A stretch of 43,665 nucleotides of DNA from the NCBI GenBank assembly GCA_017535865.1, contig JAFXTM010000097.1, positions 1 through 43,665 on the forward strand, read 5' to 3'. Source of the DNA: Oscillospiraceae bacterium (GTDB taxonomy: Bacteria; Bacillota; Clostridia; Oscillospirales; Oscillospiraceae). Position 1 is the first letter of the stretch, and the number at the start of each line of letters is the position of its first letter. Below are positions 5,711 through 43,128 of the stretch, in pieces. The position numbers and the translations under genes were made by a program. The notes beneath the pieces are model-generated. The model saw only the letters and a list, made by a program, of their open reading frames with translations. It made no database searches and had not been told where the DNA came from.

Positions 5711-7078
<1,368 letters not shown>

Positions 7079-7080
7079 AA

Positions 7081-7122
7081 AAAGCCGTGGAAGGCGACGC
7101 CTTTCACGGCTTTCTCTTTTTC
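7081..7122 (+). terminator. Terminator of murC
   Basis: A 15-bp stem with one G-U pair (7081-7095 with 7099-7113), loop GAC, followed by TCTCTTTTTC. Confidence 0.85.
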
Positions 7123-7124
7123 CC

Positions 7125-7823
7125 TCAGGCGGTCAGCACCTTGCCCAGCACGCGCAGAGGCAGGGCGTCGGAGATCGGGATATCCGGGTAATGCGGGTTC
7201 AGCGAATGGAGCGCCACATGCCCGTCGCGTGCAACGAGCTGCTTGAGATAGGCATTCCCGTCGTAAAGGAAAATGCCGATTTCCCCGGTCATAAGGCTGC
7301 GCTGCTGCCGGACCCACACAGTCTGCCCGTCGTGGAAGCGGGGCTCCATGCTGTCGCCGGTGACGCGCACGCCAAAGTTGGAGCCGTCGGGCACCTCTGC
7401 GCCGACCTCCACCATCTCGTAATCCTCTCCGTCCAGAAACTGGCCCGTGCCGGCGGACACCGGCAGGGTATAGAGCGGCAGCCGCCGCAGCGGCTCCGCC
7501 GCGCGCAGTACGGGCTGCAGCGCGTAGCGGCCGCTCTCCCTCAGGAGCTGGATGTAGTCCTGTGCGCGGCGGCGGCCCTCCTGGTTGAGTCCGGACAGGA
7601 GCCCGGCCCGTCCCTCGGAAAACTCGCCCCGGACGTCCGCGATCTCCAGCGCTTCGCAGAGCGCCAGAAACTGCCGCGCGTTCGGCAGCGTCATGCTTTT
7701 CTCCCACTTGCTGACGGCCTGGTTGCTCACCTCACAGCCGCGCGCGGTGAGCGCCTGCGCCAGCTCCATCTGACTCAGCCCCCGCTCTTTCCGGCGGGCG
7801 GCGAGGATCTCTCCGATCTGCAT
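7125..7823 (-). CDS. HTH-S24 (LexA/CI-like) self-cleaving repressor
   Basis: A 232-residue protein. An XRE helix-turn-helix (about 5-60, with SNQAVSKWEK) is joined by a linker to an S24 peptidase-like domain. The probable autocleavage site is Ala124-Gly125 in PVSAGTG; the catalytic Ser158 lies in TGDSMEP and the general base Lys194 in AYLKQL, so all elements of LexA/CI-type self-cleavage are present. By family knowledge, RecA filaments after DNA damage could trigger it. It stands alone, not in a phage, so it may be a housekeeping or stress regulator. AAGGAGGT precedes the ATG. Targets are not visible; self-regulation is plausible. Confidence 0.92.
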   Translation of the reverse strand: MQIGEILAARRKERGLSQMELAQALTARGCEVSNQAVSKWEKSMTLPNARQFLALCEALEIADVRGEFSEGRAGLLSGLNQEGRRRAQDYIQLLRESGRYALQPVLRAAEPLRRLPLYTLPVSAGTGQFLDGEDYEMVEVGAEVPDGSNFGVRVTGDSMEPRFHDGQTVWVRQQRSLMTGEIGIFLYDGNAYLKQLVARDGHVALHSLNPHYPDIPISDALPLRVLGKVLTA

Positions 7824-7854
7824 GGGACGACCTCCTTTTTATCTCTTTAAGAAA

Positions 7855-7883
7855 ATTATAGCACAATTATTCTCTGATTACAA
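7855..7883 (-). promoter_or_regulatory. Sigma-A promoter of the S24 repressor
   Basis: Read on minus: TTGTAA, 17-nt spacer, perfect TATAAT. The spacer and -10 contain ATAATT repeated at 11-nt spacing, an AT-rich patch that could serve as an operator; that is only a suggestion. Confidence 0.75.
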
Positions 7884-7949
7884 GAGTTTCCCCGCCTGGT
7901 TTCCTGCTTCAAATATTTCTCCGGATTTTCGGTCCAAAGATATGGCATT

Positions 7950-7977
7950 TTGACGGGATTCTGTTATACTGTATATA
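7950..7977 (+). promoter_or_regulatory. Promoter of the secreted anchored protein
   Basis: TTGACG, 16-nt spacer, TATATA, 33 nt upstream of the ATG at 8011. Confidence 0.65.
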
Positions 7978-8010
7978 CAAGCGACTGAACGAAAGGAAGT
8001 GCCTTTCTCC

Positions 8011-8547
8011 ATGAAAAAGACAGCCAAGTATATTTTTCCGCCTCTGCGCGTGTTCGCGCTGGCCCTGACGCTGCTGCTGGTTTTCGGCGCGGTCTGCCCT
8101 GCCGCTTGCGCGGAGGGCTTTTCGTTCCCCGCCCGGGAGGAGATCGTGAACGCGCTTGAAACGGTCTGCTCAGAGCTGGAAGAGAATCTCCCGCCGGCGC
8201 GGGAGAAGATCGAGGCTGCGTGGAAGGCGAGCTCCGGGGAGCTCGGCTCCGCCCTGAGCGGGCTGTCGGAGCTGGAGATCACCGACGCGATCAAGGGTGT
8301 TGTCGATATCGACCTGTCCGACGACGTTGCGGTCACCGTGAACGCAAATATCTCTCTGGGCGGGTCCAGCCCCGCCCCTTCGGGCAAGACGCCGAGCGGG
8401 ACGCCCTCGGACCCCGGCGGTGTTTCCACCGCGCCGAAGACAGGCGATGTAAACAACCTTGTGCTCTGGATCGCGATCGTGGCAGTGAGCGCCCTCGCGC
8501 TCGCCGCTGCGCTCTTCTTCCTGCTGCGCCGGAGAAAAAGAAAATAA
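8011..8547 (+). CDS. Small secreted protein with sortase-like C-terminal anchor
   Basis: A 178-residue protein with a signal peptide (MKKTAKYIF, a hydrophobic stretch, then ACA-E as a likely cleavage site near residue 34). A helical region of about 80 residues and a Gly/Ser/Pro/Thr-rich linker (about 115-140) follow. The C-terminus has APKTGD, a 21-residue hydrophobic helix and RRRKRK, the layout of an LPxTG sorting signal with Ala in place of Leu; alternatively it is simply a membrane anchor. GAAAGGAAG sits before ATG 8011; a GTG at 7999 is less likely. It has its own promoter and terminator. I do not recognise the family and no sortase gene is in the window. Confidence 0.8.
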   Translation: MKKTAKYIFPPLRVFALALTLLLVFGAVCPAACAEGFSFPAREEIVNALETVCSELEENLPPAREKIEAAWKASSGELGSALSGLSELEITDAIKGVVDIDLSDDVAVTVNANISLGGSSPAPSGKTPSGTPSDPGGVSTAPKTGDVNNLVLWIAIVAVSALALAAALFFLLRRRKRK

Positions 8548-9930: not shown

Positions 9931-10713
9931 TCAGGAGATGGAGATGATCTTTTCGCAGAGCTCCTCCGCGCTGACGTTCGGATTGTGATAGTGCTCCCGC
10001 TTGTCCGTGATCTTGCCGAGCGAGATCGCCTTCTGCGGGCAGTACTGCAGGCAGCCCAGACACTGGATGCAGTCGCGGCCGATCACGGCCCGACCGTATT
10101 CCACCCGGATGTTGCCGCGCGGGCACAGGCGCGCGCACTGGCCGCAGCCGATGCAGCTCGCGCTGACCTTGAAGGCGGCGGCTTTTTTCTTGGCGATCAG
10201 CGGCCAGGCCTTGTTTTCTGCCGCGTTCAGCGCGTTTTTCGGCGGGGCCTTCGGGCTCAGCCTCCGCGCCAGGACATCCTGCGCGATCTCCCGGGCGAGC
10301 TTTTCGCTGCGCTTCTGCGCCTTCTCCGGGCTGAGCGGCGGGATCATCAAGGTGTGGGGGAAGAGCCAGATGCAGCTGCACTGATGCGTGACCGCCCGCC
10401 AGTAGCGGAGCGGGATCACGTCGTTGAGCGCCGCGAGGCCGGTGCCGGCGTAACTGGAGGACTGGCTGATGCCGAAGGTGTAGGCGTCGGGGCTGACCTG
10501 GATCGTCTTCGCAAAGCGCAGCACGTCCTCCGGCGCGCCGCCGCCGTAGCACGGAAAGACGAAGCCGACGCACCGGGCGTCCCGCGCGTCCGTATCGACG
10601 GGCGCAGAGCGCATCATGACGATGTCGGCGCCGCCGATATGCCGCGCGATGTTTTTGGCCAGGTCGAGACAGTTGCCGGTGCCTGAAAAACAGTAGATCC
10701 GATTCTTGTTCAA
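9931..10713 (-). CDS. EFR1-type flavodoxin/ferredoxin fusion protein
   Basis: A 260-residue protein joining an N-terminal flavodoxin-like domain (phosphate loop FSGTGNC, 9-15) to a C-terminal bacterial 2[4Fe-4S] ferredoxin (CIGCGQCARLCPRG and CIQCLGCLQYCPQ). This is the EFR1 family layout, a cytoplasmic electron carrier of unknown partner in anaerobes. The start is TTG at 10713: AAGGAGGT lies 6 nt before it and no ATG fits. A CLC transporter gene follows closely. Whether the two cooperate is unknown. Confidence 0.88.
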   Translation of the reverse strand: MNKNRIYCFSGTGNCLDLAKNIARHIGGADIVMMRSAPVDTDARDARCVGFVFPCYGGGAPEDVLRFAKTIQVSPDAYTFGISQSSSYAGTGLAALNDVIPLRYWRAVTHQCSCIWLFPHTLMIPPLSPEKAQKRSEKLAREIAQDVLARRLSPKAPPKNALNAAENKAWPLIAKKKAAAFKVSASCIGCGQCARLCPRGNIRVEYGRAVIGRDCIQCLGCLQYCPQKAISLGKITDKREHYHNPNVSAEELCEKIISIS

Positions 10714-10788
10714 GAGAAGACCTCCTTTTCTGTATGATGTTTCTTGCCCCGGATGGATGTGTTTTGGAGCCGCGGCGCGCCGCCGCGC

Positions 10789-11562
10789 TTATTCCAGACC
10801 GAAAAAGGCGACCGTGCGCGCAATGGCGAGATCCATCGTGCCCGGGGCGAGAAAGCGGTGGTCGGCTCCGTCCACGGGGACAAAGGCGATCCCGTTTTTC
10901 TCCGCAAAGGCTTTCACCGCCGCAAAGGGCACGATCTCATCCTCCGTGCCGTGCAGGATCAGCATGTCGGCCGCGAGCGGCGAATAGTCCCGCGCGGACA
11001 GCTCCGCCGCGCGCAGGCTCTCGAGAAAGCCGCGGTCGATCCCGACTTTCCGATCAAAGCCGACGAGCGCGGGCGTCCCATTCTCGACGCTCTCCAGGAG
11101 GCCGTTCGGCATGATGGCCCGGGTGAGCACCTCATACATGGGGATCGCCGGGCAGCGGAAGACCAGCTTGCGAAACGGATTGTCGTGCCCGGCGAGATAC
11201 AGCAGATACAAGTAGCCGCCAAAGCTCGTCGCGCAGCCGTACAGCGTCTCCGGCGAGAAGCGGGCCTGCGTGTCGGCGATCAGCAGCTCAAGATAGCGCA
11301 TGCAGTCGTCCAGCCGGAGCGTCTGCCGCTCGTCGTCGCCGTGGCAGGGCCAGTTGAACACGACGAGCGCGGCGTCCGGGTTTTTCTCCCGCACGCGCCG
11401 GGCAAGCTTTTCCGCCGCCCGATTATCCTTGTGCCCGCCAAAGCCGTGTCCGAACAGGATCAGCGTTTTCACGGCGCCGGCATCCGGGCCGTAGAGCTTG
11501 CAGCGGATACGGCAGTCCTCCGCCTCGACGGTGTAATAGCGAAAAGCAGTCAGAGCAGCCAT
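10789..11562 (-). CDS. Alpha/beta hydrolase (serine hydrolase fold)
   Basis: A 257-residue alpha/beta hydrolase. FGHGFGGHKD gives the oxyanion region, the nucleophile elbow is CATSFGG (with Thr before the Ser in place of the more common variable residue), the acid is in HGTEDEIVP and the histidine in DGADHRF, giving a complete Ser-Asp-His set. The substrate is unknown; similar proteins are annotated as acyl hydrolases or dienelactone-hydrolase-like. It starts 30 nt after the ogt stop and is probably the third gene of the alkyltransferase operon. Confidence 0.85.
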   Translation of the reverse strand: MAALTAFRYYTVEAEDCRIRCKLYGPDAGAVKTLILFGHGFGGHKDNRAAEKLARRVREKNPDAALVVFNWPCHGDDERQTLRLDDCMRYLELLIADTQARFSPETLYGCATSFGGYLYLLYLAGHDNPFRKLVFRCPAIPMYEVLTRAIMPNGLLESVENGTPALVGFDRKVGIDRGFLESLRAAELSARDYSPLAADMLILHGTEDEIVPFAAVKAFAEKNGIAFVPVDGADHRFLAPGTMDLAIARTVAFFGLE

Positions 11563-11592
11563 AGGTGTTTGTCTGGTTCCTTTCCTTTCGGT

Positions 11593-12105
11593 TTACCGGG
11601 CGCTGTCCGCCAAACAGACGCCCTCCAGCGCCAGCAGCCAGCGCTTCTTTTCGATCCCGGCGGCATAGCCGGTGAGGCTCCCGTCCGCGCCAACGACCCG
11701 GTGGCAGGGGATGACCAGCGAGATGGCGTTATGCCCCACCGCGCCGCCGACTGCCTGGGCGGACAGATGCGGCGGGCAGCGCTCCGCGGCGAGGCGCGCG
11801 GCGATCTGGCCATAGCTTACGGTCTCGCCGTAGGGGATCGTTATCAGGATCTCCCACACAGCCTTGCGGAAGGGCGTCGCCTTCATCCGCAGCGGCGGCG
11901 TGAAGTCCGGCTTCCGACCGCTGAAGTAGAGATCGAGCCAGCGCGCGGCCTCGTCAAAGACGGGCAGCGCCCGCGCCTCGTGCTCTGCGGCAAGCGTGGC
12001 GGCATAGTATTTTTGGCCCTCGAACCAGAGCCCGGTCAGAGCCTCGCCGTCGGAGGCGAGGGTAATCCCGCCCAGCGGGGACAGATAGCAGTTGGTGTAT
12101 TCCAA
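11593..12105 (-). CDS. ogt: Methylated-DNA--[protein]-cysteine S-methyltransferase
   Basis: A 170-residue O6-alkylguanine-DNA alkyltransferase. The C-terminal domain has the helix-turn-helix block VSYGQIAARL, the acceptor-cysteine motif IPCHRVVG and the binding-channel segment GYAAGIEKKRWLL. The N-terminal beta domain (LSPLGGITLASDGEALTGLWF) is complete. It repairs O6-methylguanine by irreversible transfer to its own Cys. It lies 3 nt after the stop of a second, shorter alkyltransferase-like gene, so the two are cotranscribed. Confidence 0.95.
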   Translation of the reverse strand: MEYTNCYLSPLGGITLASDGEALTGLWFEGQKYYAATLAAEHEARALPVFDEAARWLDLYFSGRKPDFTPPLRMKATPFRKAVWEILITIPYGETVSYGQIAARLAAERCPPHLSAQAVGGAVGHNAISLVIPCHRVVGADGSLTGYAAGIEKKRWLLALEGVCLADSAR

Positions 12106-12108
12106 AAC

Positions 12109-12417
12109 TCATACCTTCAATTGGTGCCGGCGCATGTCCACCGTACCGTTTTCCCGGAAGCACACGCCCTCTTCGCAGAGCCGGGCACGCTGCTCCGGAA
12201 AATGCGGCGCGAGCCGGCCTGCGTGGTTGACCACGCGGTGGCAGGGATAGTCCCCGTAGAGATGCGCCATGCTCAGGATCTTTCCCACAAGGCGGGCGTT
12301 CGCATCAAGCCCGATCAAGCGTGCGATCTGCCCATACGTAGCTACCGAACCAGCAGGGATCTCCTCCACGACCGAGAGCACCTCGTAGATCCGTTCCTCC
12401 GTTGCAACTGTTGCCAT
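12109..12417 (-). CDS. Small MGMT-family (alkyltransferase-like) protein that keeps the acceptor Cys
   Basis: A 102-residue protein made only of the C-terminal DNA-binding domain of alkylguanine transferases: SVATYGQIARLIGL (helix-turn-helix) and YPCHRVVNHAGRLAPHF. Alkyltransferase-like (ATL) proteins of this size often have Trp in place of the Cys and only flag lesions; here the Cys is kept, so it may be catalytic. The ATG at 12417 is preceded by AAGGAG and the longer frame to 12486 runs into the promoter. It leads an operon with ogt and a hydrolase. Confidence 0.88.
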   Translation of the reverse strand: MATVATEERIYEVLSVVEEIPAGSVATYGQIARLIGLDANARLVGKILSMAHLYGDYPCHRVVNHAGRLAPHFPEQRARLCEEGVCFRENGTVDMRRHQLKV

Positions 12418-35677: not shown

Positions 35678-38485
35678 TCAGATGTCCTCCTCCAGGAAGG
35701 TCATCAGTTCCTCCACGGAGGGATCTTCCAGAGGCGAAAGCCGCTCTGCCTGCTTTCGAATCATACCCTCGAGCAGCCTCTCGATATAGCGCGCATTCCC
35801 GAAGGAGGAAGATTTTACGCCCTTCGCCGCTTCGATGTGCTCCCGGGCGCGCTGCCGTGTCCCCTCCGTCATCCGATACCCCCTTTTCCTGCACATGCGC
35901 TCCAGGATGGTGCAGAGCTCGTCGAGGGTATAATCCGGAAACATGATCTTATCGCTGAAGCGAGATTCCAGGCCGGGATTAGAATCGATAAGCTTTTGGA
36001 TCGGCTTGGGATAGCCGGCCAGGATCACCACCAGATCGTCCCGATGGTCCTCCATGGCTTTGAGGAGCGTATCGATCGCTTCCCTGCCAAAGCTGTCGCC
36101 TGGACCTTGGTCCAGGGAGTAGGCCTCGTCGATAAATAAAACGCCGCCCATGGCACGGTCGATCAGCTTCTGAGTCTTGAGCGCCGTGTCCCCTACATGG
36201 TTCGAGACAAGAGCTTTGCGGTCCGCCTCAACCAACTGGCCGCCGGGGAGGACGCCGATCGACCGGTATATTTTGCCGATCAGGCGCGCCACCGTGGTTT
36301 TGCCCGTACCGGGGTTCCCGACAAAGGCCATGTGCATGCGGACCGGGTCTGCCGGCAAGTTTTTCTTCCGGCGAATAAGCGATAGACGATACACATCGGC
36401 GAGGGTTTTTATCTCATTCTTTATCTTGTCAAGGCCGACCATATCGTTGAGTTCGCCCATCAGTTCCTCAAAAGTCGCGTTTTCTTTCGGCAGATTCTGG
36501 ACGTGCGCCTCCGGGATATCCTCCGCCCGGAGCTCGGAGAGCTCCTCTCTTGTTGACGAGGAGGACGCAGCCAGGCGCAGAGACTGTCTTCTGATGATAT
36601 CCTCAAACAGCGTACGCACGTAGCGCCCGTTTCCGAAGTCCTTTGGGTTTGCGCTCTTTCCCTGCTGGATGATCCGGCGGCAGAGTGTCTTCGCCTCGTC
36701 CGTCATAGTGTACTCGTATTTTTTCAGCAGCCTGTCCAAAATAGTGCAAAGCTCGTCGAGCGAATAGTCCGGAAACCGAATCTCTTTGCTGAAGCGGGAT
36801 TTCAGGCCGACGTTGGACTCGATAAACGCTCTCATCGGCTCGGGATAGCCGGCCACGATCACCACCAGATCGTCCCGGTGGTCCTCCATGGCTTTGAGGA
36901 TGGTTTCGATCGCTTCATGGCCGAAGTCGTTTTCATCTCCGCGCAGCGAATAGGCCTCGTCAACGAACAGCACCCCGCCCAGGGCCCGGTCGATCTGCTC
37001 CTGCGTCTTGATGGCTGTCTGCCCCACATAGCCCGCCACAAGCTTTCCGCGGTCCACTTCGATCGTCTGACCGCGTGGGAGGACGCCGATCGCCCGGTAG
37101 AGTTTTCCGATCAGGCGCGCCACCGTGGTTTTGCCCGTGCCGGGATTGCCGACGAAAGAAAGGTGCAGGCTTAACGGGTGTACCGTCATTCCTTCCGCTT
37201 TTCGCCGCTGAGCGGCCTGGATAAAGCTGATGAGTTCGCTGACTTCCCTTTTCACTTCGTCGAGGCCGACCATGTCGTTCAGCTCGGCAAGCGCGCTCTC
37301 CAGATCGGGCTCCTCCGTTTCAAGCTCCTCGATCGAGGCCCGTGCCACGGTCCAATCCGGCTTTTCGCGGGGAAGCGCCGCCTCGGTTTTGCGCTTGTCG
37401 GCTTTTTTCGCAGCTTTCCTCGGCTTTTTCTTTTTCGACGGGAGCTCCCAGATCTCGTCCACGGTCTCCACTGTCAGAGGAATGACCTTCTCTTCACGCT
37501 CGTCCAGGAAGTCGCAGAGCCGTTCCATGATCGTTCCCATGGACTCGCCTGCTTCCGTGTCGCAGACGCCGCCGCCTTTTCGCCTTGCGGTACACTCGAT
37601 GATCTCCCGGACAAGCTCGTCAAGCTCCTCGTACGGAAAAAGGATCCTGTGGTGTTTGCCCTCCGTCCCGACGATGCGGAGACGCCGAAGCAGGTTTTTG
37701 ATCTCGTCCGCCCGGGGGCGACCGATACGCAGACAGGTCTTCGGATTCAGCTCGACAGAATCGCGAGTCGGATAAACGACAAACTTGGATGCCAAAGGAG
37801 TACTGCTCAGTATGCGGATCAGCTCCTGCGGGTTGGATCCAGTGTCCGGAGCCAGAAAGAGGCAGAGGTTCGGCACGCCGTCAAAGTCCTTTTCTGCGTC
37901 CCAGGTGAGCACCTCGTCGAGGAACGGCCGGTTGGAAAACAGATTGGTGGTGACGATGTTGTAGAAGACCACCGCCATATTGCTTTTTTTGTCCAGCATC
38001 AGGGGATGGAGCATGGTATAGAACGGCTCGAGCATCATACCTCGGCGCGCGTACCGGACTTTCTGCGGCCCCTCTCCTTTCTCTTCGGAAACCGCCTCCT
38101 TTTTATCTCCTGAAGCGCGGCCGCTTTTGAACTGTTGGTCAAACTCATCCATCACCGAAAGCTTGCGCTTTTTGCTCCGGGAGAGCGGATCCCCGGGCAC
38201 CGGTTCAACCGCGCCGCTTTCCGTTTCCCCCGGGAGAACGACCGGAAGGCCGCGATTCTCCGGGAAGAAAAAGCGTGCGCTCTTCGAGTCCCGGCAGTAA
38301 GCGCCGCGAATTCCGGTATCCCCGTAGAAAACGATATGCTCATAGCCTCTCTTTCGGAGATACTTTACCAGGTATTCTTCAAAGGAACGCACCACCAGAT
38401 CGCCGCAGACGATCGGATCGTTCAGATCTCCGTAAAGGATGAGAGTCCTGGAATCATAATCGTAGGAATCCAGAAATGATTTCAT
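35678..38485 (-). CDS. Tandem CbxX/CfxQ-type AAA+ ATPase
   Basis: A 935-residue protein. Residues 1-345 are a divergent region without a Walker A motif; the segment LCLFLAPDTGSNPQELIRIL through PRADEIKNLLRRLRI resembles the end of an AAA domain, so it may be a degenerate module. A Lys-rich linker (about 350-375) leads to module 1 (about 395-660; Walker A GNPGTGKT 446-453, Walker B LFVDEAYSL) and module 2 (about 672-935; Walker A GNPGTGKT 723-730, Walker B LFIDEAYSL). Both have GYPxPMRAFI/GYPKPIQKLI segments and the CbxX fold of SpoVK and rubisco activase. It is the last gene of the operon; TGGAGG precedes the ATG. The partners are unknown. Confidence 0.9.
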   Translation of the reverse strand: MKSFLDSYDYDSRTLILYGDLNDPIVCGDLVVRSFEEYLVKYLRKRGYEHIVFYGDTGIRGAYCRDSKSARFFFPENRGLPVVLPGETESGAVEPVPGDPLSRSKKRKLSVMDEFDQQFKSGRASGDKKEAVSEEKGEGPQKVRYARRGMMLEPFYTMLHPLMLDKKSNMAVVFYNIVTTNLFSNRPFLDEVLTWDAEKDFDGVPNLCLFLAPDTGSNPQELIRILSSTPLASKFVVYPTRDSVELNPKTCLRIGRPRADEIKNLLRRLRIVGTEGKHHRILFPYEELDELVREIIECTARRKGGGVCDTEAGESMGTIMERLCDFLDEREEKVIPLTVETVDEIWELPSKKKKPRKAAKKADKRKTEAALPREKPDWTVARASIEELETEEPDLESALAELNDMVGLDEVKREVSELISFIQAAQRRKAEGMTVHPLSLHLSFVGNPGTGKTTVARLIGKLYRAIGVLPRGQTIEVDRGKLVAGYVGQTAIKTQEQIDRALGGVLFVDEAYSLRGDENDFGHEAIETILKAMEDHRDDLVVIVAGYPEPMRAFIESNVGLKSRFSKEIRFPDYSLDELCTILDRLLKKYEYTMTDEAKTLCRRIIQQGKSANPKDFGNGRYVRTLFEDIIRRQSLRLAASSSSTREELSELRAEDIPEAHVQNLPKENATFEELMGELNDMVGLDKIKNEIKTLADVYRLSLIRRKKNLPADPVRMHMAFVGNPGTGKTTVARLIGKIYRSIGVLPGGQLVEADRKALVSNHVGDTALKTQKLIDRAMGGVLFIDEAYSLDQGPGDSFGREAIDTLLKAMEDHRDDLVVILAGYPKPIQKLIDSNPGLESRFSDKIMFPDYTLDELCTILERMCRKRGYRMTEGTRQRAREHIEAAKGVKSSSFGNARYIERLLEGMIRKQAERLSPLEDPSVEELMTFLEEDI

Positions 38486-38513
38486 AGTTCGGCCTCCAGC
38501 AAAGCATGCCCGA

Positions 38514-40004
38514 TCATACGGTGACCTTCTTCTTGACCGGCGTTGTTCTTACCGCATCTTTCGTCTTCAAACTCTGGTCAGCCGCTTCTCTGCCGACGCT
38601 GCCCGTGCAGCACAGCCTGCCCGTCAGCCCTGCCGCGCGAAGCGCTTCTTCCATGCTGCTGCGAACTTTTTGCTTTTCTTCCTCGGTGACTTCGCGATCG
38701 CTGTAGTAGAAGTTGATCTTCATTGCCATGCTTCCCAGATCCTCTGTCGACTCGTCCTCATCCAGCGCGACGCTGATCGAGTTTCCGCTGACCGGCTCGA
38801 CAAAACTGATAACCGTTTTCTGCGTGGGATCGTCTCCGGGCATTGCGCTCCAATCCATCTGATATCCGTTATCCAGCATGTGATCGGAGAGCACCTGCAG
38901 GGCATGTACACGCTCAAAAAACTGCAGCAGTCTCTTATGTCCTTCCGCCACAAGCCTGTCGGCACGCGGGACAAGCTCGTCCTCCACGTGAGACAAGATC
39001 GCCATTGCTTCCGCCGGACTGAAGGCGGAGGCGTCGGCGGACTGGATTCGGTCCAGCAGCTGCCGGACTTCGTCCTCCAGCCTGGCGAATTCCCCCTGCG
39101 TATAGATGTCGAGATCCACCTCGCGTTCGCCGAAGAGTTCGTCCTCCAGCGTGAAATGACGTGCTTTTTCCAGTTCCCCGAGAAGACCCTCGAGCCTCGC
39201 TTCGACTGCGATCAGCCTCTCGTCTCTGTCCATCATGTCCTTTTCATGCTCGACGGCGAGGCTCGCGCTGCGGGTGATGACGGTTTCGGCCTGGGCAACC
39301 GAGGACTCGAAGAAGCCGTTCTTCAACTGCTCCTCCGCAGCACGGCATCTCTCTTCCATGATCGCCACGTTGTTCTTAAAGGCAATATCGGACGGATCGC
39401 TGGCGGAAAGGCTCTGCAGCAGCGTGATCGACGCCCGGGCGTCCCGGAGGCGTTCCTCGGCCGCGACTCTCTGCTGATTTCTTGCGGCGGCCGTGCTTGC
39501 CTTCCAGTCGACGAGCTCCGTCGCGGTCTTCTGGATCTTTTTCATCTCATCCATGAGCGCCCGCTCGGTCTCCTCAGTTTCGGCGCGGATGCGGCGCATC
39601 TCTTTTTCCCGGGTCTCCTTCATCGCGCGAGAGCCGGCGGTTTTTACTTTTTCGGCTTCCCCGGCGATAAACTCCGTGTCCGGCGTGGCTTCGGCGGTGA
39701 GACGAATATCCTCCGCCAGACCTTTCATCTCTTCTTCCAGGCCTCGATAAAAAGCGTCTCTCTCCGCACGCTCCTTTTTCATGGCCTCGTCCAGACGGCT
39801 GTAAACGCCGGACAGCTCCGCACTGCATCGTGAGACCTTCAGCTCGGTCTCGCGATGACGTCTCTCCGCTGCCTTTACGGCGGCACCTCCCAGTTTCACG
39901 AGTCCGTACACGCCGGCCGCCACCGCACCCGCACCCAAAATGTAAGGAAGCGCTCCGAGTAAAATGACCGCTCCGATTACGGCGCCTCCGCCTTCTCCGC
40001 TCAT
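38514..40004 (-). CDS. Membrane-anchored coiled-coil protein of the AAA operon
   Basis: A 496-residue protein of no family I recognise. It starts with a Gly/Ala-rich hydrophobic stretch (about 8-45, IGAVILLGALPYILGAGAVAAGVYGL) that gives one or two membrane helices, then a long coiled coil (about 48-215, rich in E, K, R and A), a helical middle (NGFFESSVAQAETVI) and a compact C-terminal alpha-beta domain (about 385-480, VISFVEPVSGNSISVALDED). The C-terminal half resembles the next upstream gene product. AAGGAGGATC precedes the ATG. It lies 28 nt from the AAA gene. Confidence 0.85.
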   Translation of the reverse strand: MSGEGGGAVIGAVILLGALPYILGAGAVAAGVYGLVKLGGAAVKAAERRHRETELKVSRCSAELSGVYSRLDEAMKKERAERDAFYRGLEEEMKGLAEDIRLTAEATPDTEFIAGEAEKVKTAGSRAMKETREKEMRRIRAETEETERALMDEMKKIQKTATELVDWKASTAAARNQQRVAAEERLRDARASITLLQSLSASDPSDIAFKNNVAIMEERCRAAEEQLKNGFFESSVAQAETVITRSASLAVEHEKDMMDRDERLIAVEARLEGLLGELEKARHFTLEDELFGEREVDLDIYTQGEFARLEDEVRQLLDRIQSADASAFSPAEAMAILSHVEDELVPRADRLVAEGHKRLLQFFERVHALQVLSDHMLDNGYQMDWSAMPGDDPTQKTVISFVEPVSGNSISVALDEDESTEDLGSMAMKINFYYSDREVTEEEKQKVRSSMEEALRAAGLTGRLCCTGSVGREAADQSLKTKDAVRTTPVKKKVTV

Positions 40005-40018
40005 AGTGATCCTCCTTT

Positions 40019-41389
40019 TTATCCTTGTTTTCTTTCTCTTTTTCTTTCAAAACGCCTGACATCCGGAGGCTGCTTCCGGCTTTTCTCCAGCGCGTCGGCC
40101 GAACACGTATCCAGACAGGCTTCGATGGGGACCTTGTGTTCAGCATATGCAGCATAAAGAGAGTCGACGACAGCCATCGCCGTTTTCTGCAGAAAACCGG
40201 GCTCCGGCGTTGTCCGGTTGCCCACACTGACAAGGCACAATACGCCGTTTGTCACGCCGTCGTGCCGCCGCGGGACGAGTGAGACCTGTACGGTGTCCGC
40301 TCCGTTTGCGGAGGCGACGACGTCGAAAGTCTCCAGCGGATCGCTGTCACGGAAGCCGCTGTCCAGGATCGTATATCCCATACTGCCGAGCTGCTCCGCC
40401 GCATAGTCGGCGAGTGCGCGGCGCAGGGAAGAGAAAAACACCTCGTTTTCGATGCATTCCGCAACGGCGGAGAAATGATCCGTCAGTTTTTTGATCTCCG
40501 GGAGTATCTCAAGGATGATCAGATCCTGCTTCGGGGCGTCCCCGCTGCTCAGATAGGCCGTGATCCCGCCCGCTTCATCGACGGCGCGGACAAGGGCAAT
40601 GTTTTTTTCGATCTTTGCCTTGAGCCTGCCGTATTCGCCTCCGCTGAAATGCTCGCGAAGCCTTTCGGTCAGTTCGATCATTCCGCCTGCGACGGGCACG
40701 GGCGTTTTTTCAAAGCTCTCGAGCTGACTGTGCAGGGATTGGGCAAGCGCGGCGAAGCGGGAAAAACACGCTTCCCACTGATTTTGCATATCGAGGATCC
40801 GGAGCTTGATGATCTGCAGCTCCATAATGGCCGCGTCGGCGACCGCGCTCGCCGCTTCATACAGCCCCTTTTTGATCCACGCGTCGGCGGTTTCGACGTG
40901 CGCCTGAAACAGCTCCAGTTGATGAGGCAGAAAAAACTCATGCGGCAGAGCGCCGACTTCGGCCGCCCGGCCCTCCGCCTCCGCTTTTTTCTCCCTGGCG
41001 ATCGCCTTTCCGGTCTCGCTTCGCCTGTGCTCCTCCTCGCGGAGCTTCTGCACCTCGCGCGCAAGCTCCTCCTCGGCGCGGCTCAGCTCCTCGAGCTTCG
41101 CCCGAACCCGTTCCCTGGCCTTCTCATCCGCGCGCCTTAGCTCCTCCGCATAGCGCAGCATCTCGCACTGCAGTTCATCGCGCAGCTTATGTACGACCTC
41201 AAGATACGCCGCATCCATCCGACGCTTGTTTTCCTCGAGCGCGCGCGCCTGCGCTTCTTTCAGCCGCTTCAGATTGTCCCGGTTTTCTTCTTCTATTCTT
41301 CTCCGCTCACTGGCGGCTTCGCTCGACAGGCTTTCGATCTCGTCACTCAGGTCACGGATCTTTTTCTTCAGGGCCGCTTCCGACGCCAT
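40019..41389 (-). CDS. Coiled-coil protein of the AAA operon
   Basis: A 456-residue soluble protein. A long charged coiled coil (about 5-150) is followed by a helical segment with KKGLYEAASAVADAAIMELQII, which aligns with LKNGFFESSVAQAETVITRS of the neighbouring membrane-anchored protein; both have a C-terminal alpha-beta domain (FDVVASANGADTVQVSLVP here). This suggests a paralogous pair. The start ATG 41389 lies inside the end of the preceding gene (38-nt overlap) with a weak GGGGGAAA site, so translation is probably coupled. Function unknown. Confidence 0.82.
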   Translation of the reverse strand: MASEAALKKKIRDLSDEIESLSSEAASERRRIEEENRDNLKRLKEAQARALEENKRRMDAAYLEVVHKLRDELQCEMLRYAEELRRADEKARERVRAKLEELSRAEEELAREVQKLREEEHRRSETGKAIAREKKAEAEGRAAEVGALPHEFFLPHQLELFQAHVETADAWIKKGLYEAASAVADAAIMELQIIKLRILDMQNQWEACFSRFAALAQSLHSQLESFEKTPVPVAGGMIELTERLREHFSGGEYGRLKAKIEKNIALVRAVDEAGGITAYLSSGDAPKQDLIILEILPEIKKLTDHFSAVAECIENEVFFSSLRRALADYAAEQLGSMGYTILDSGFRDSDPLETFDVVASANGADTVQVSLVPRRHDGVTNGVLCLVSVGNRTTPEPGFLQKTAMAVVDSLYAAYAEHKVPIEACLDTCSADALEKSRKQPPDVRRFERKRERKQG

Positions 41390-42452
41390 CTTTGTTTCCC
41401 CCAAGTTCTTCCGCAAGCGGGATCGTACCGTCCGTCCCCTGCAGGACAACGCGCTGGATCCTCTCGTCGATCGCCTCGCGCCAGCGCAGGATTTGACCGA
41501 TGGTCTTCTCCGCCGCATCAAGCTCTTTTTCCACATTTTCCAGCTTTTTGGAGACCGATTGCCCTTTCAGGAAGGGCTCCTCCTGCATCAGGATCAGGGT
41601 GGCCTGGTCATCTCCAAACTGCGCGCGGAGCGCGGCGAGCTTCCGCTCCGCGTCCTCACAGTCCATCGTACGGATCTCCTCCAGCTTCTTTGCCTCCTCA
41701 AGCGCTTTGCCCAGCTCGGCTTTCTTTTTTTCCGCATCGAGGATCGACGCCTGCGTGCGGTCAAGTTCCCCTTTGACCGACTCCAGTTCACCCAGCTTTT
41801 TTTTGAGCTCGCTGCAGAGAGAAGCAAGACCGGACGACAGCTCCAGCAGCAGACCGTCCACGTTGGCGGCGGCGATCCTTTCCAGCAAACCATTTTCGGC
41901 ACGGGCTGTTTCCAGATCCCTCAAGGTGACCTCTCCGGCCTCCGCGGCCGCCTTCAGCGCCTCTGCCTGAGCCAAAGCGGCGTCTCGCTCTTCCGTTGCC
42001 TTCCGGAGCTTTTCCTCCAAGGCTCTTTTTTCTTCCTCAAAACCGACGTCGTCCGCATCGGGAGTTTCGGTCGTCGGTCCGTCAGGATCCGTGACGCTGA
42101 TGCTCTGATTCGGAACGATCCGGATCTCCCTCACGTTGGAGAAGGATCTGACCTCGCCGCCAAGCGAAGGGATCGCGATCGTCACCTCGGCGAGCGTGCC
42201 TTCCTGAAAGCTGATCGTCAAACTGTCTTTCGCGGGCAGATCTCGCGTTAGGGTGAGTTTACAGGTTTTTGAGGTCGGATTGGAGGCTATCTTCCAGAGC
42301 CCGACGTCGGCATCGGCGTGTTTCCATTTTTGAACAGCAAGAAACTGTTGATTGTTCTTGCTGTCCTTGAACTGGATCCCCTGCGTTTGCCTGCAGAGGA
42401 TCTCATAAACGGCCTGGCCTGTGAGACCGTTATGTTTCCACGTTTGTGTCAT
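41352..42452 (-). CDS. Beta-rich/coiled-coil protein of the AAA operon
   Basis: A 366-residue protein with no recognised family. Residues 1-120 look beta-rich (WKHNGLTGQAVYEILCR, then KTCKLTLTRDLPAKDSLTISF and EVRSFSNVREIRIVPNQSI), after which an acidic linker (about 121-135) leads to a coiled coil (about 138-345) of the same kind as in the next two genes. The opening has an adhesion- or ligand-binding look but this is only shape. It overlaps the radical SAM gene by 23 nt and the following gene by 38 nt. Confidence 0.82.
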   Translation of the reverse strand: MTQTWKHNGLTGQAVYEILCRQTQGIQFKDSKNNQQFLAVQKWKHADADVGLWKIASNPTSKTCKLTLTRDLPAKDSLTISFQEGTLAEVTIAIPSLGGEVRSFSNVREIRIVPNQSISVTDPDGPTTETPDADDVGFEEEKRALEEKLRKATEERDAALAQAEALKAAAEAGEVTLRDLETARAENGLLERIAAANVDGLLLELSSGLASLCSELKKKLGELESVKGELDRTQASILDAEKKKAELGKALEEAKKLEEIRTMDCEDAERKLAALRAQFGDDQATLILMQEEPFLKGQSVSKKLENVEKELDAAEKTIGQILRWREAIDERIQRVVLQGTDGTIPLAEELGGNKDGVGSGPEEKDP

Positions 42453-43128
42453 TGAGCTTTTTCACCCTTCTCCATATTTCTCTCTGATCCTGTCCGGGCA
42501 CGCCCACAAGCAGGGTCGTTTTTTCCGAAAGACGGATCTCCACTTTCCGGCCGACGGCTTCGGTATAATATGACATCTGACCGGCATACCGGTTCGTCAG
42601 GGGCAGCAGCCGCTGGTTATCCGAACCCACATAGGGTTGGTTGTGATCTCTTTCCTGCAGATACGGCCCGTCGATCAGCAGATCGATGTTGTTCAAAAAA
42701 CGCCGAACGGCGCTCTCCTGCTTTGCACGGTCAAGAAGCTCTTCATAGAGGTAGCCTGTATAGACGATCACGCCCGCGTCTTTCTCCCGCCGGATGATCT
42801 CTGTCAGCTCGGCAAGGGCCTCCGCCTGCTCAAACGGCTCGCCGCCGCTGATCGTGATGCCTTCCGCATCCTGAGCCAGATACCATTCAGCCATCTCCTG
42901 CACGGTGGTCTCCCGGGGCGTGCCTTCCCGAAAGCTCTTTGCGATGCAGCCCGGACAGTCCCGCGGACAGCCAAACACCCACAGGACAGCTCTGTTTCCC
43001 GGGCCGAGGACTTTACAGCCCGCGATCCTTGCGCCGTACAGCAAGCGGCTCACACGTTTCACCCCGCCATTTTTCAAAATGATCCCTGTACGAAGAGACG
43101 GCTCGTCTGCTGTGTTTTTCCGGAGCAT
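42430..43128 (-). CDS. Radical-SAM activase-like [4Fe-4S] protein
   Basis: A 232-residue protein of the NrdG/PflA-like radical SAM group. The cluster motif is CX3CX2C (Cys54, Cys58, Cys61 in GCPRDCPGC), the SAM-binding GGEP is at 96-99, and VIVYTGYLYEEL and LLIDGPYLQERDHNQPYVGSDNQR match anaerobic ribonucleotide reductase activators. No NrdD or glycyl-radical enzyme gene is nearby, so its target is unknown. It is the first gene of the five-gene operon. The ATG at 43128 is preceded only by CGGAAGAG, and the promoter lies so near that the leader would be about 10 nt; a later start such as GTG at codon 23 or 26 is possible. Confidence 0.88.
   Translation of the reverse strand: MLRKNTADEPSLRTGIILKNGGVKRVSRLLYGARIAGCKVLGPGNRAVLWVFGCPRDCPGCIAKSFREGTPRETTVQEMAEWYLAQDAEGITISGGEPFEQAEALAELTEIIRREKDAGVIVYTGYLYEELLDRAKQESAVRRFLNNIDLLIDGPYLQERDHNQPYVGSDNQRLLPLTNRYAGQMSYYTEAVGRKVEIRLSEKTTLLVGVPGQDQREIWRRVKKLNDTNVET

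Follow-up and report, generated by a model that had tools for sequence, protein, structure and literature searches.

The window analysed here, that is, the whole stretch of 43,665 nt from the Oscillospiraceae contig, carries five minus-strand genes for a radical-SAM protein (rSAM), the coiled-coil proteins B, C and D, and an AAA+ protein (Table 1). In the junction check, rSAM and B overlapped by 23 nt, and the gaps between C and D and between D and the AAA+ gene were 14 and 28 nt, respectively. The overlap between C and B was 185 nt with the listed start of C and 38 nt with the ATG at 41389. Because Bacillota C relatives begin at this ATG in the comparison of C proteins, the overlap is only 38 nt and a purine-rich stretch lies upstream of it, the true C gene is probably the shorter version; C proteins from other phyla have a longer N-terminus than those of Bacillota, which keeps this start likely, not certain. 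One promoter-like site, TTGTGA-17-TATAGT, lies ahead of the first gene, and a terminator-like hairpin farther out would shield the operon from its upstream neighbour; these are consensus matches only, the upstream stretch holding 2 promoter-like sites (0.7 in shuffles) and 3 terminator-like sites (1.0 in shuffles). The presence of the five genes is confirmed, and they look like one operon; the ORFs, junctions and promoter-like site agree with the first-pass annotation, which had described five minus-strand genes with overlaps or gaps of 14–28 nt behind one promoter. The housekeeping gene rsgA is a neighbour on the same contig.

Table 1. Positions of the operon genes, AAA+ domains and upstream signals in the window
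Feature	Position	Strand	Remarks
rSAM (gene 1), 232 aa	42430-43128	-	ORF; Pfam Fer4_12
B (gene 2), 366 aa	41352-42452	-	ORF; coiled-coil-like region at end
C (gene 3)	40019-41536 as listed; probable 40019-41389	-	ORF; start from comparison with relatives
D (gene 4)	38514-40004	-	ORF; C paralogue (profile alignment) with hydrophobic N-terminal segment
AAA+ protein (gene 5)	35678-38485	-	ORF; N-domain and two CbxX modules
AAA+ N-domain, residues 1-392, plus linker	37310-38485	-	Predicted degenerate AAA+ domain without P-loop
CbxX module 1	36503-37309	-	Both Walker motifs (A and B); pore-loop position YVG
CbxX module 2	35681-36478	-	Both Walker motifs (A and B); pore-loop position HVG
Promoter-like site, TTGTGA-17-TATAGT	43173-43145	-	TG ahead of second hexamer; consensus match only
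Terminator-like hairpin, 16 pairs	43340-43306	-	Consensus match only

The rSAM protein matched Fer4_12 in Pfam (2.9e-28), and its best solved relative was the pyruvate formate-lyase activating enzyme 3c8f (3.8e-20). The CX3CX2C and GGEP motifs read from it earlier were both present, and CX3CX2C and GG[ED]P were found in 94 of 94 non-NrdG rows of the rSAM alignment. It also has a short C-terminal segment that is common to its AAA+-associated relatives. Many of its plasmid relatives are filed merely as '4Fe-4S single cluster domain' protein.

None of B, C and D matched a Pfam family above its cut-off. Profiles built without the window recovered C at 141.8 bits and D at 77.8 bits, and the C and D family profiles aligned with each other at 99.4 and 99.9% probability; on this profile evidence C and D are paralogues, D being the one with the hydrophobic N-terminus. 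The first-pass annotation does not mention this paralogy. The best 19-residue hydropathy was 0.98–2.83 in 15 D rows versus at most 0.55 in 30 C rows, and in the D protein of the window the peak stretch of this length begins at residue 7, with a mean hydropathy of 2.09. This segment is a putative membrane anchor, and the 'membrane-anchored' coiled coil described before fits D. The structure model of C (mean pLDDT 77.7) shows a helical middle and a small beta-sheet C-terminal domain. A B profile built without the window from 12 positional equivalents found B at E 0.0021 in a 5-protein set and through its coil segment only; B is matched to its relatives by position alone.

The AAA+ protein matched Pfam AAA (1.6e-32) and AAA_lid_6 (1.5e-34) in two stretches each. 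The structure model of its N-domain shows an AAA+ fold; this part is a third, dead AAA+ domain that lacks a P-loop. The former label 'double CbxX-type AAA+ protein' is right about the two CbxX modules with their Walker motifs and missed this predicted third domain. Relatives usually carry two to four CbxX matches in tandem behind the dead N-domain, with one in locus L115. Against the SpoVK model, which has 261 positions and does not cover the N-domain, the whole protein scored 595 bits (cut-off 422.95) because the scores of the two modules, 315 and 288.5 when taken alone, add up. The CbbX and EccA models gave 438.1 (cut-off 459.25) and 465.2 (cut-off 466.65) for the whole protein and less for single modules, and each module is below the cut-offs of all three models. 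In PADLOC 2023, the protein matched IetA/DolB/TRIP13 models via its AAA region. That gene 5 is SpoVK, a sporulation protein with incidental neighbours, is hardly credible: the whole-protein score does exceed the cut-off of about 423, but neither module reaches it, the N-domain lies outside the model, and operon relatives occur in cyanobacteria, Chloroflexota and Pseudomonadota, which are not known to make endospores.

The recurrence of the gene set was evaluated in the best 80 of at least 503 rSAM relatives, with loci picked by the rSAM protein alone; the counts out of 80 below all refer to this set. The order rSAM-B-C-D-AAA+ was found in 13 loci (B by position), in line with the one system that had been claimed. 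An AAA+ gene was present in 56 loci (51 of them with the gene no more than 6 kb away on the same strand), and in 36 of the 41 loci flanked by 8 kb or more on each side, while the next profile-labelled same-strand gene after rSAM belonged to the C family in 47. CbxX-type operons occurred in at least six phyla among these loci. Pairwise distances in 24 operons correlated at 0.71 (rSAM-C), 0.71 (rSAM-N) and 0.87 (C-N), with none of 2000 permutations reaching the observed value for any pair; the rSAM-C value does not separate a substrate from a companion. With profiles built without the window, the window was found to encode rSAM, a C-family coil and an N-domain AAA+ protein together, the N-domain being recovered at E 4.3e-42 in a one-sequence search. 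Locus L065, which contains unread letters (X), was left out of structure-prediction alignments A4 and A5 and kept in A3 and the profiles. These comparisons show that rSAM, the C/D coils and the AAA+ protein with its predicted dead N-domain have been kept together across distant phyla.

Among 300 family genomes, five passed E 0.001 with the C profile: the window's own genome, G861 (1.3e-54), whose locus reads rSAM-C-AAA+, and, left uncounted, three weak matches to coils (1.7e-4 to 8.4e-4). Among 391 class genomes 17 passed, of which only the own genome was strong, the other 16 being short stretches (best 4.4e-8). The C query found one plasmid record, Calothrix pCAL6303.02 (E 1e-3, 21.8% identity), which is also among the best plasmid matches of rSAM. 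Single-sequence searches returned only the window's own genome for D (147 order and 200 family genomes), and the own genome plus one match at 7.9e-4 for the AAA+ N-terminus (299 phylum genomes). Since profiles and rSAM-selected loci did reveal relatives, both divergence and rarity lie behind these empty results.

Gene 1, annotated at first pass as an activase, shares the Fer4_12 family, CX3CX2C and GGEP with NrdG and pyruvate-formate-lyase activase. NrdG was indeed its top NCBIfam model (3.3e-27), and the cysteine motif is canonical, but the 95.3 bits fall short of the cut-off of 126.1. A constant glycyl-radical partner elsewhere had been named as the case against one system; NrdD was found in 0 of 80 loci, while class-wide rSAM matches without an AAA link had NrdD in the short flanks of 19 of 26 loci. 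In the tree, all 19 NrdD-linked rows lie on one side of a branch (support 96/95) and the window rSAM lies elsewhere, in a 14-row clade (support 100/92) of 11 CbxX-linked rows, 2 with no motor seen and 1 with the N-domain only. Control loci without NrdD in their short flanks (L012, L014, L017, L023, L026, L028, L034) and loci whose proteins were already in under other names (L008, L010, L036) were left out of this tree. A Ycf46-linked Treponema row with a long branch fell on the NrdG side of the midpoint root. The strict glycyl-radical motif was absent from each of the 86 B, C, D and AAA+ proteins checked, and the loose motif, present in the NrdD control, was not above shuffles in any partner family. 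On these results the activase label does not hold, and it is very unlikely that gene 1 is an ordinary NrdG lying by chance upstream of unrelated genes, a reading largely refuted by the absence of NrdD and the tree position.

The N-domain is common to CbxX and ClpB-type motors (profile alignment probability 99.0, E 3.5e-18), and C-like coils accompany it there as well: a mostly Clp-linked coil set aligned with C of other phyla (97.7%) and with D (95.1%). At the level of profiles and gene neighbourhoods, the motor is shown to be exchanged, with CbxX modules in some operons and one of ClpB-D2 type in others; the N-domain, the C-like coil and rSAM stay. The wide spread and the two motor kinds are absent from the first-pass annotation. 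Ycf46-type AAA+ proteins were paired with the rSAM family in 9 of 80 loci; no C-family gene was seen in 7 of these 9 locus maps, and one was present in L083 and L090.

As for neighbouring genes, TerD lay upstream in 7 of 80 loci, with a cation P-type ATPase ahead of the TerD genes in L057; Hsp70 was near 22, and STK/PP2C genes were near at least 11, a count that omits at least L057, whose kinase was found by Pfam alone. Of the 80, only L077 and L109 had a match to a DO-GTPase-like profile. The window genome has one TerD match, on another contig (C21), and none on the window contig (C24). The module might instead serve anti-phage defence proper, not metal or envelope stress, as kin of Clp-type operons, found on plasmids, in which a Mokosh-like helicase and a PIN-domain gene are present. 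A Polaromonas Clp-type cousin has a helicase matching MkoA at 7.6e-102, L162 is a full TerD-linked operon copy on a contig filed as viral, beside a ResIII-like ORF (read by eye), and the distribution is patchy (strong C-profile matches in 2 of 300 family genomes, own included). The window operon, however, has no recognised nuclease or toxin-like part, its PADLOC matches are generic AAA or coiled-coil ones only, and rsgA sits nearby on its contig; we hold a purely antiviral role to be possible, with the balance tilted against it.

The reading we prefer, with a probability of roughly 55%, is one dedicated machine consisting of a membrane-tethered coiled-coil scaffold, an AAA+ motor and a dedicated radical-SAM maturase, acting in the response to stress or phage conflict. 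What is shown here is gene order, homology and the predicted fold of the N-domain; the chemistry, the remodelling and the trigger are inferred. D would anchor a C/D coiled-coil scaffold at the membrane, onto which the dead N-domain would dock the motor. CbbX acts on rubisco by pulling a tail; on this model, the CbxX ring may pull a tail of C or D, so that the assembly is dismantled or activated. The maturase would license the machine by modifying an operon protein, most likely C/D. The TerD, Hsp70 and kinase/phosphatase genes adjoining its relatives suggest that the module may be part of an inducible response to stress or phage conflict.

Alternatively, in the same machine, rSAM could make or alter a small molecule or an outside target, and this signal would switch the AAA+/coil part. 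Viperin-type rSAM enzymes, which produce antiviral nucleotides, are a precedent; the window genes overlap or are at most 28 nt apart, too close for a hidden peptide gene to fit between them; and the Ycf46-type pairing, mostly with no C-family gene seen, also fits. Against this, the sole viperin-model match among those listed was weak (pVip 7.2e-6, in one relative), the window rSAM matched no PADLOC 2023 model at E up to 1, and rSAM and C distances correlate, although with the limit given above. We consider a small-molecule or outside target unlikely. The further proposal, that a radical-SAM maturase licensing a membrane-tethered coiled-coil scaffold, with an AAA+ motor, interchangeable between CbxX and ClpB type, that docks via a dead AAA+ domain, defines a new class of immune/stress machine, is tentative and may well prove wrong; we know of no precedent for an AAA+ remodelling system controlled by a radical enzyme.

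Gene 1 differs from NrdG in that its relatives in the set of 80 have no adjoining NrdD, in its place outside the NrdD-linked clade and in the extra C-terminal segment. Like CbbX, SpoVK and EccA, the two AAA+ modules are members of the CbxX group; they differ in standing in tandem behind a predicted dead N-domain and below all three cut-offs. TerD upstream of 7 module relatives recalls Ter neighbourhoods, whereas the window has no TerD match, and neither have 73 of the 80 relatives in the flanking DNA examined. An MkoA-like helicase in one Clp-type relative is the likeness to Mokosh; the window operon has no helicase, and Mokosh is not known to include rSAM, PIN, coil or AAA+ genes. PADLOC 2023 gave weak matches only for B, C and D (best 0.00078) and no specific model for the operon proteins. 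The GTPase/Hsp70 and MoxR-vWA conflict systems of PMC7159879 resemble the module in their NTP-driven core, and Hsp70, kinase/PP2C or DO-GTPase genes adjoin some module relatives, whereas the module AAA+ is of CbxX or ClpB type; that paper names radical SAM once, for FtsH ternary systems. Pfam gave no vWA for rSAM, B, C and D at E up to 1 and none among the best 25 of 38 families for the AAA+ protein, and listed no DO-GTPase for rSAM, B, C or D. No description of this five-gene module was found in the literature searched; it is conserved but apparently undescribed.

The coils of the module have no family model above cut-off, and the motor passes that of SpoVK only by summing its modules. Under one name, entries now scattered as 'hypothetical protein' and 'AAA family ATPase' become a single system that can be tested. 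If it is true that rSAM modifies the substrate of the motor, radical protein chemistry would be linked to AAA+ remodelling, and TerD neighbourhoods, for which no clear mechanism has long been known, could gain a concrete machine.

All five minus-strand genes claimed by the first-pass annotation were present as described, judging from ORF and family matches: a radical-SAM protein (rSAM), three coiled-coil proteins (B, C and D) and an AAA+ protein, which starts with a degenerate AAA+ domain without P-loop (N-domain) followed by two CbxX modules. The rSAM and B genes overlap by 23 nt, and gaps of 14 and 28 nt separate C from D and D from the AAA+ gene, respectively. From its listed start C would overlap B by 185 nt, but alignment with Bacillota relatives suggests a later ATG as the likelier start, the longest-ORF start being probably 49 codons too early. 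Since there is one promoter-like site with a terminator-like hairpin before it, a single transcript is plausible.

Coordinates of features in the window and at related loci
Feature	Sequence	Coordinates	Strand	Remark
Terminator-like hairpin	window	43340-43306	minus	ahead of promoter-like site; consensus match only
Promoter-like site	window	43173-43145	minus	consensus match only
C, longest ORF	window	40019-41536	minus	listed start 41536
C, likelier start	window	41389	minus	ATG
Double-CbxX protein	window	35678-38485	minus	
Further CbxX protein	L043 (G000:C87)	6667-8154	minus	window's own genome
rSAM and Ycf46-type AAA+	L053 (Treponema succinifaciens pTRESU01)	9992-12147		
rSAM and paralogues	L048 (Geminocystis)	10960-16675		

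Loci of relatives were selected by the radical-SAM protein alone, using an alignment (A1) of the window, Calothrix and Geminocystis proteins, and the best 80 of at least 503 relatives were analyzed. An AAA+ gene was found within the available flanks at 56 of them (CbxX 30, ClpB-D2-type 19, Ycf46-type 9, two kinds at three loci; L068, with its N-domain truncated at the contig end, is included), and at 51 it lay on the same strand as rSAM and no more than 6 kb away. The order rSAM-B-C-D-AAA+, with B assigned by position, recurred at 13/80 loci (L057, L058, L059, L062, L064, L065, L066, L067, L068, L069, L077, L095 and L109; the AAA+ gene is split at L066 and truncated at L068), in agreement with the earlier claim of one system. 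L094 and L096 had this order minus B, and a shorter order of labelled genes, rSAM-C-AAA+, with an extra gene in some, was seen at 11/80. The rSAM-AAA+ linkage is not universal, because five of the 24 loci lacking an AAA+ gene in the available flanks had at least 8 kb on each side (L102, L105, L124, L126 and L133, all cyanobacterial); parts of the system may be scattered there. All of these except L105 have a common local gene order including an ORF resembling a Calothrix TPR protein. Over 300 genomes of the family, the C profile gave one strong match besides the window's own genome, G861, in which rSAM and an N-domain AAA+ gene sit on either side of C; a fragment upstream looked Hsp70-like by eye and gave no match in the profile search. 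The C query against plasmids (E up to 0.01) returned one record, Calothrix pCAL6303.02 (E 1e-3), where C is flanked by rSAM and a double-CbxX protein.

Profiles from which the window sequences were left out, run against the five window proteins, recovered C (505 aa; 141.8 bits, E 6.8e-45) and D (496 aa; 77.8 bits, E 1.9e-25), and the corresponding N-domain profile matched the AAA+ protein (E 4.3e-42 in a one-sequence search). C and D aligned with each other at 99.4% probability within Bacillota and 99.9% for C of other phyla versus D. What sets D apart is a hydrophobic N-terminus: the most hydrophobic 19-residue stretch has a mean hydropathy of 0.98 to 2.83 across 15 D proteins, against no more than 0.55 across 30 C proteins. 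The B profile matched at E 0.0021 through the coil segment alone, and B is equivalent to the relatives' genes by position only. Distances of rSAM, C and N-domain were correlated across 24 operons (0.71 to 0.87) and within 17 Bacillota (0.75 to 0.93), with 0/2000 permutations as high in each test; species descent contributes to these correlations.

The label 'activase' had to be given up, as the tree, the absence of NrdD and the absence of the strict motif make a glycyl-radical activase very unlikely. Of the 113 radical-SAM proteins in the tree, the 19 linked to NrdD are split from all others by a single branch (96/95; found in 94% of the bootstrap trees), and the window rSAM falls outside this group, in a 14-row clade (CbxX 11, none 2, N 1; support 100/92). 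Constant company of a glycyl-radical enzyme would have spoken against one system, and NrdD was found at 0/80 rSAM-selected loci; among class-wide rSAM matches, 3/29 loci were AAA-linked and NrdD occurred in the short flanks of 19 of the 26 others. The strict glycyl-radical motif, carried by the NrdD control, occurred in 0/86 partner proteins, and the loose motif was not clearly above shuffles (Bacillota C, 1/17 versus 0.79; elsewhere 0 or below the shuffled mean).

N-domains of CbxX-type proteins and of Clp-type relatives, which bear a ClpB-D2-type motor instead, were homologous (hhalign probability 99.0, E 3.5e-18, 269 columns), 13/20 Clp-type N regions matching individually at E 1e-3. Iterating the C profile gathered a mostly Clp-linked coil family (11/14 members adjoin a Clp-type motor), whose alignment probability was 97.7% (E 2.4e-12) against C from other phyla, 95.1% against D and, more weakly, 77.4% against Bacillota C. 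In our reading of these alignments, an exchange of the motor left rSAM, the coil and the dead AAA+ domain in place; being kept through this exchange, these three are the likely functional core. Only the sum of its two modules takes the double-CbxX protein past the SpoVK equivalog cut-off, and automatic annotation may label such proteins SpoVK. The window's genome encodes another CbxX protein, about 496 aa long, that resembles the window AAA+ (2e-94).

Clp-type cousins on Photobacterium, Leisingera and Polaromonas plasmids lie in helicase-PIN-coil-AAA+-rSAM operons (PIN or PIN-like; L050, L054 and L055 on plasmids, and L037). The Polaromonas helicase matched MkoA of Mokosh (7.6e-102), and these operons are candidates for a separate defence system. 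Plasmid loci L049 and L052 combine the same rSAM type with a Ycf46-type AAA+ and a DUF2997 gene, DUF1257 being annotated in one. Among 80 rSAM loci from viral-filed contigs, 21 had a Ycf46-type AAA+ (e.g. L167, L184, L186 and L200) and 18 had NrdD. The Treponema pair lies among contractile-injection-system genes. In Geminocystis, rSAM is followed by three paralogues resembling P-loop GTPases by eye and two of unknown family, with a C-like coil further along.

TerD genes occurred at 7/80 rSAM-selected loci, all of five-gene type or a cut form of it (L060), Hsp70-profile matches at 22/80, and STK or PP2C genes at at least 11/80. Genes for TerD (1e-74), a cation P-type ATPase (Cation_ATPase_C 4.1e-33) and a protein kinase (2.5e-10) flank the L057 operon; at L077 Pfam confirmed the Hsp70 assignment (1.6e-52), and DO-GTPase2 matched at its cut-off. 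Aristaeella and two other genomes hold FHA, rSAM, AAA+, PP2C and kinase genes together. L162 (IMGVR_UViG_3300019373_000210) alone among the 80 viral-filed loci combines TerD genes, four in number, with the complete operon. No TerD, Hsp70 or kinase/phosphatase-type neighbour was seen beside the window copy, and the single TerD match in its genome is on a different contig. We read a signalled stress or conflict response as the common denominator that these neighbourhoods suggest.

What the analysis shows is the gene set, the homology, a hydrophobic end on D and, as a prediction, the dead domain. The mechanism that we favour goes further, and we consider it slightly better than even (roughly 0.55), the rSAM target being its largest doubt. 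In it, D would be the membrane tether of a coiled-coil assembly of C and D, the hexameric motor would dock through the dead AAA+ domain, and rSAM would modify an operon protein to make the system competent. CbbX threads the rubisco large-subunit tail; by analogy, upon a trigger that we likewise infer, the CbxX modules may thread a C/D tail, so that the assembly is dismantled or switched on. The parts fall within known superfamilies. The C/D family had no match above cut-off in the family and defence-model libraries used, and the combination of rSAM, coil and AAA+ was not described in the open-access literature searched. Given this scope, we do not regard the combination as categorically new and place it among the NTP-driven stress or conflict systems.
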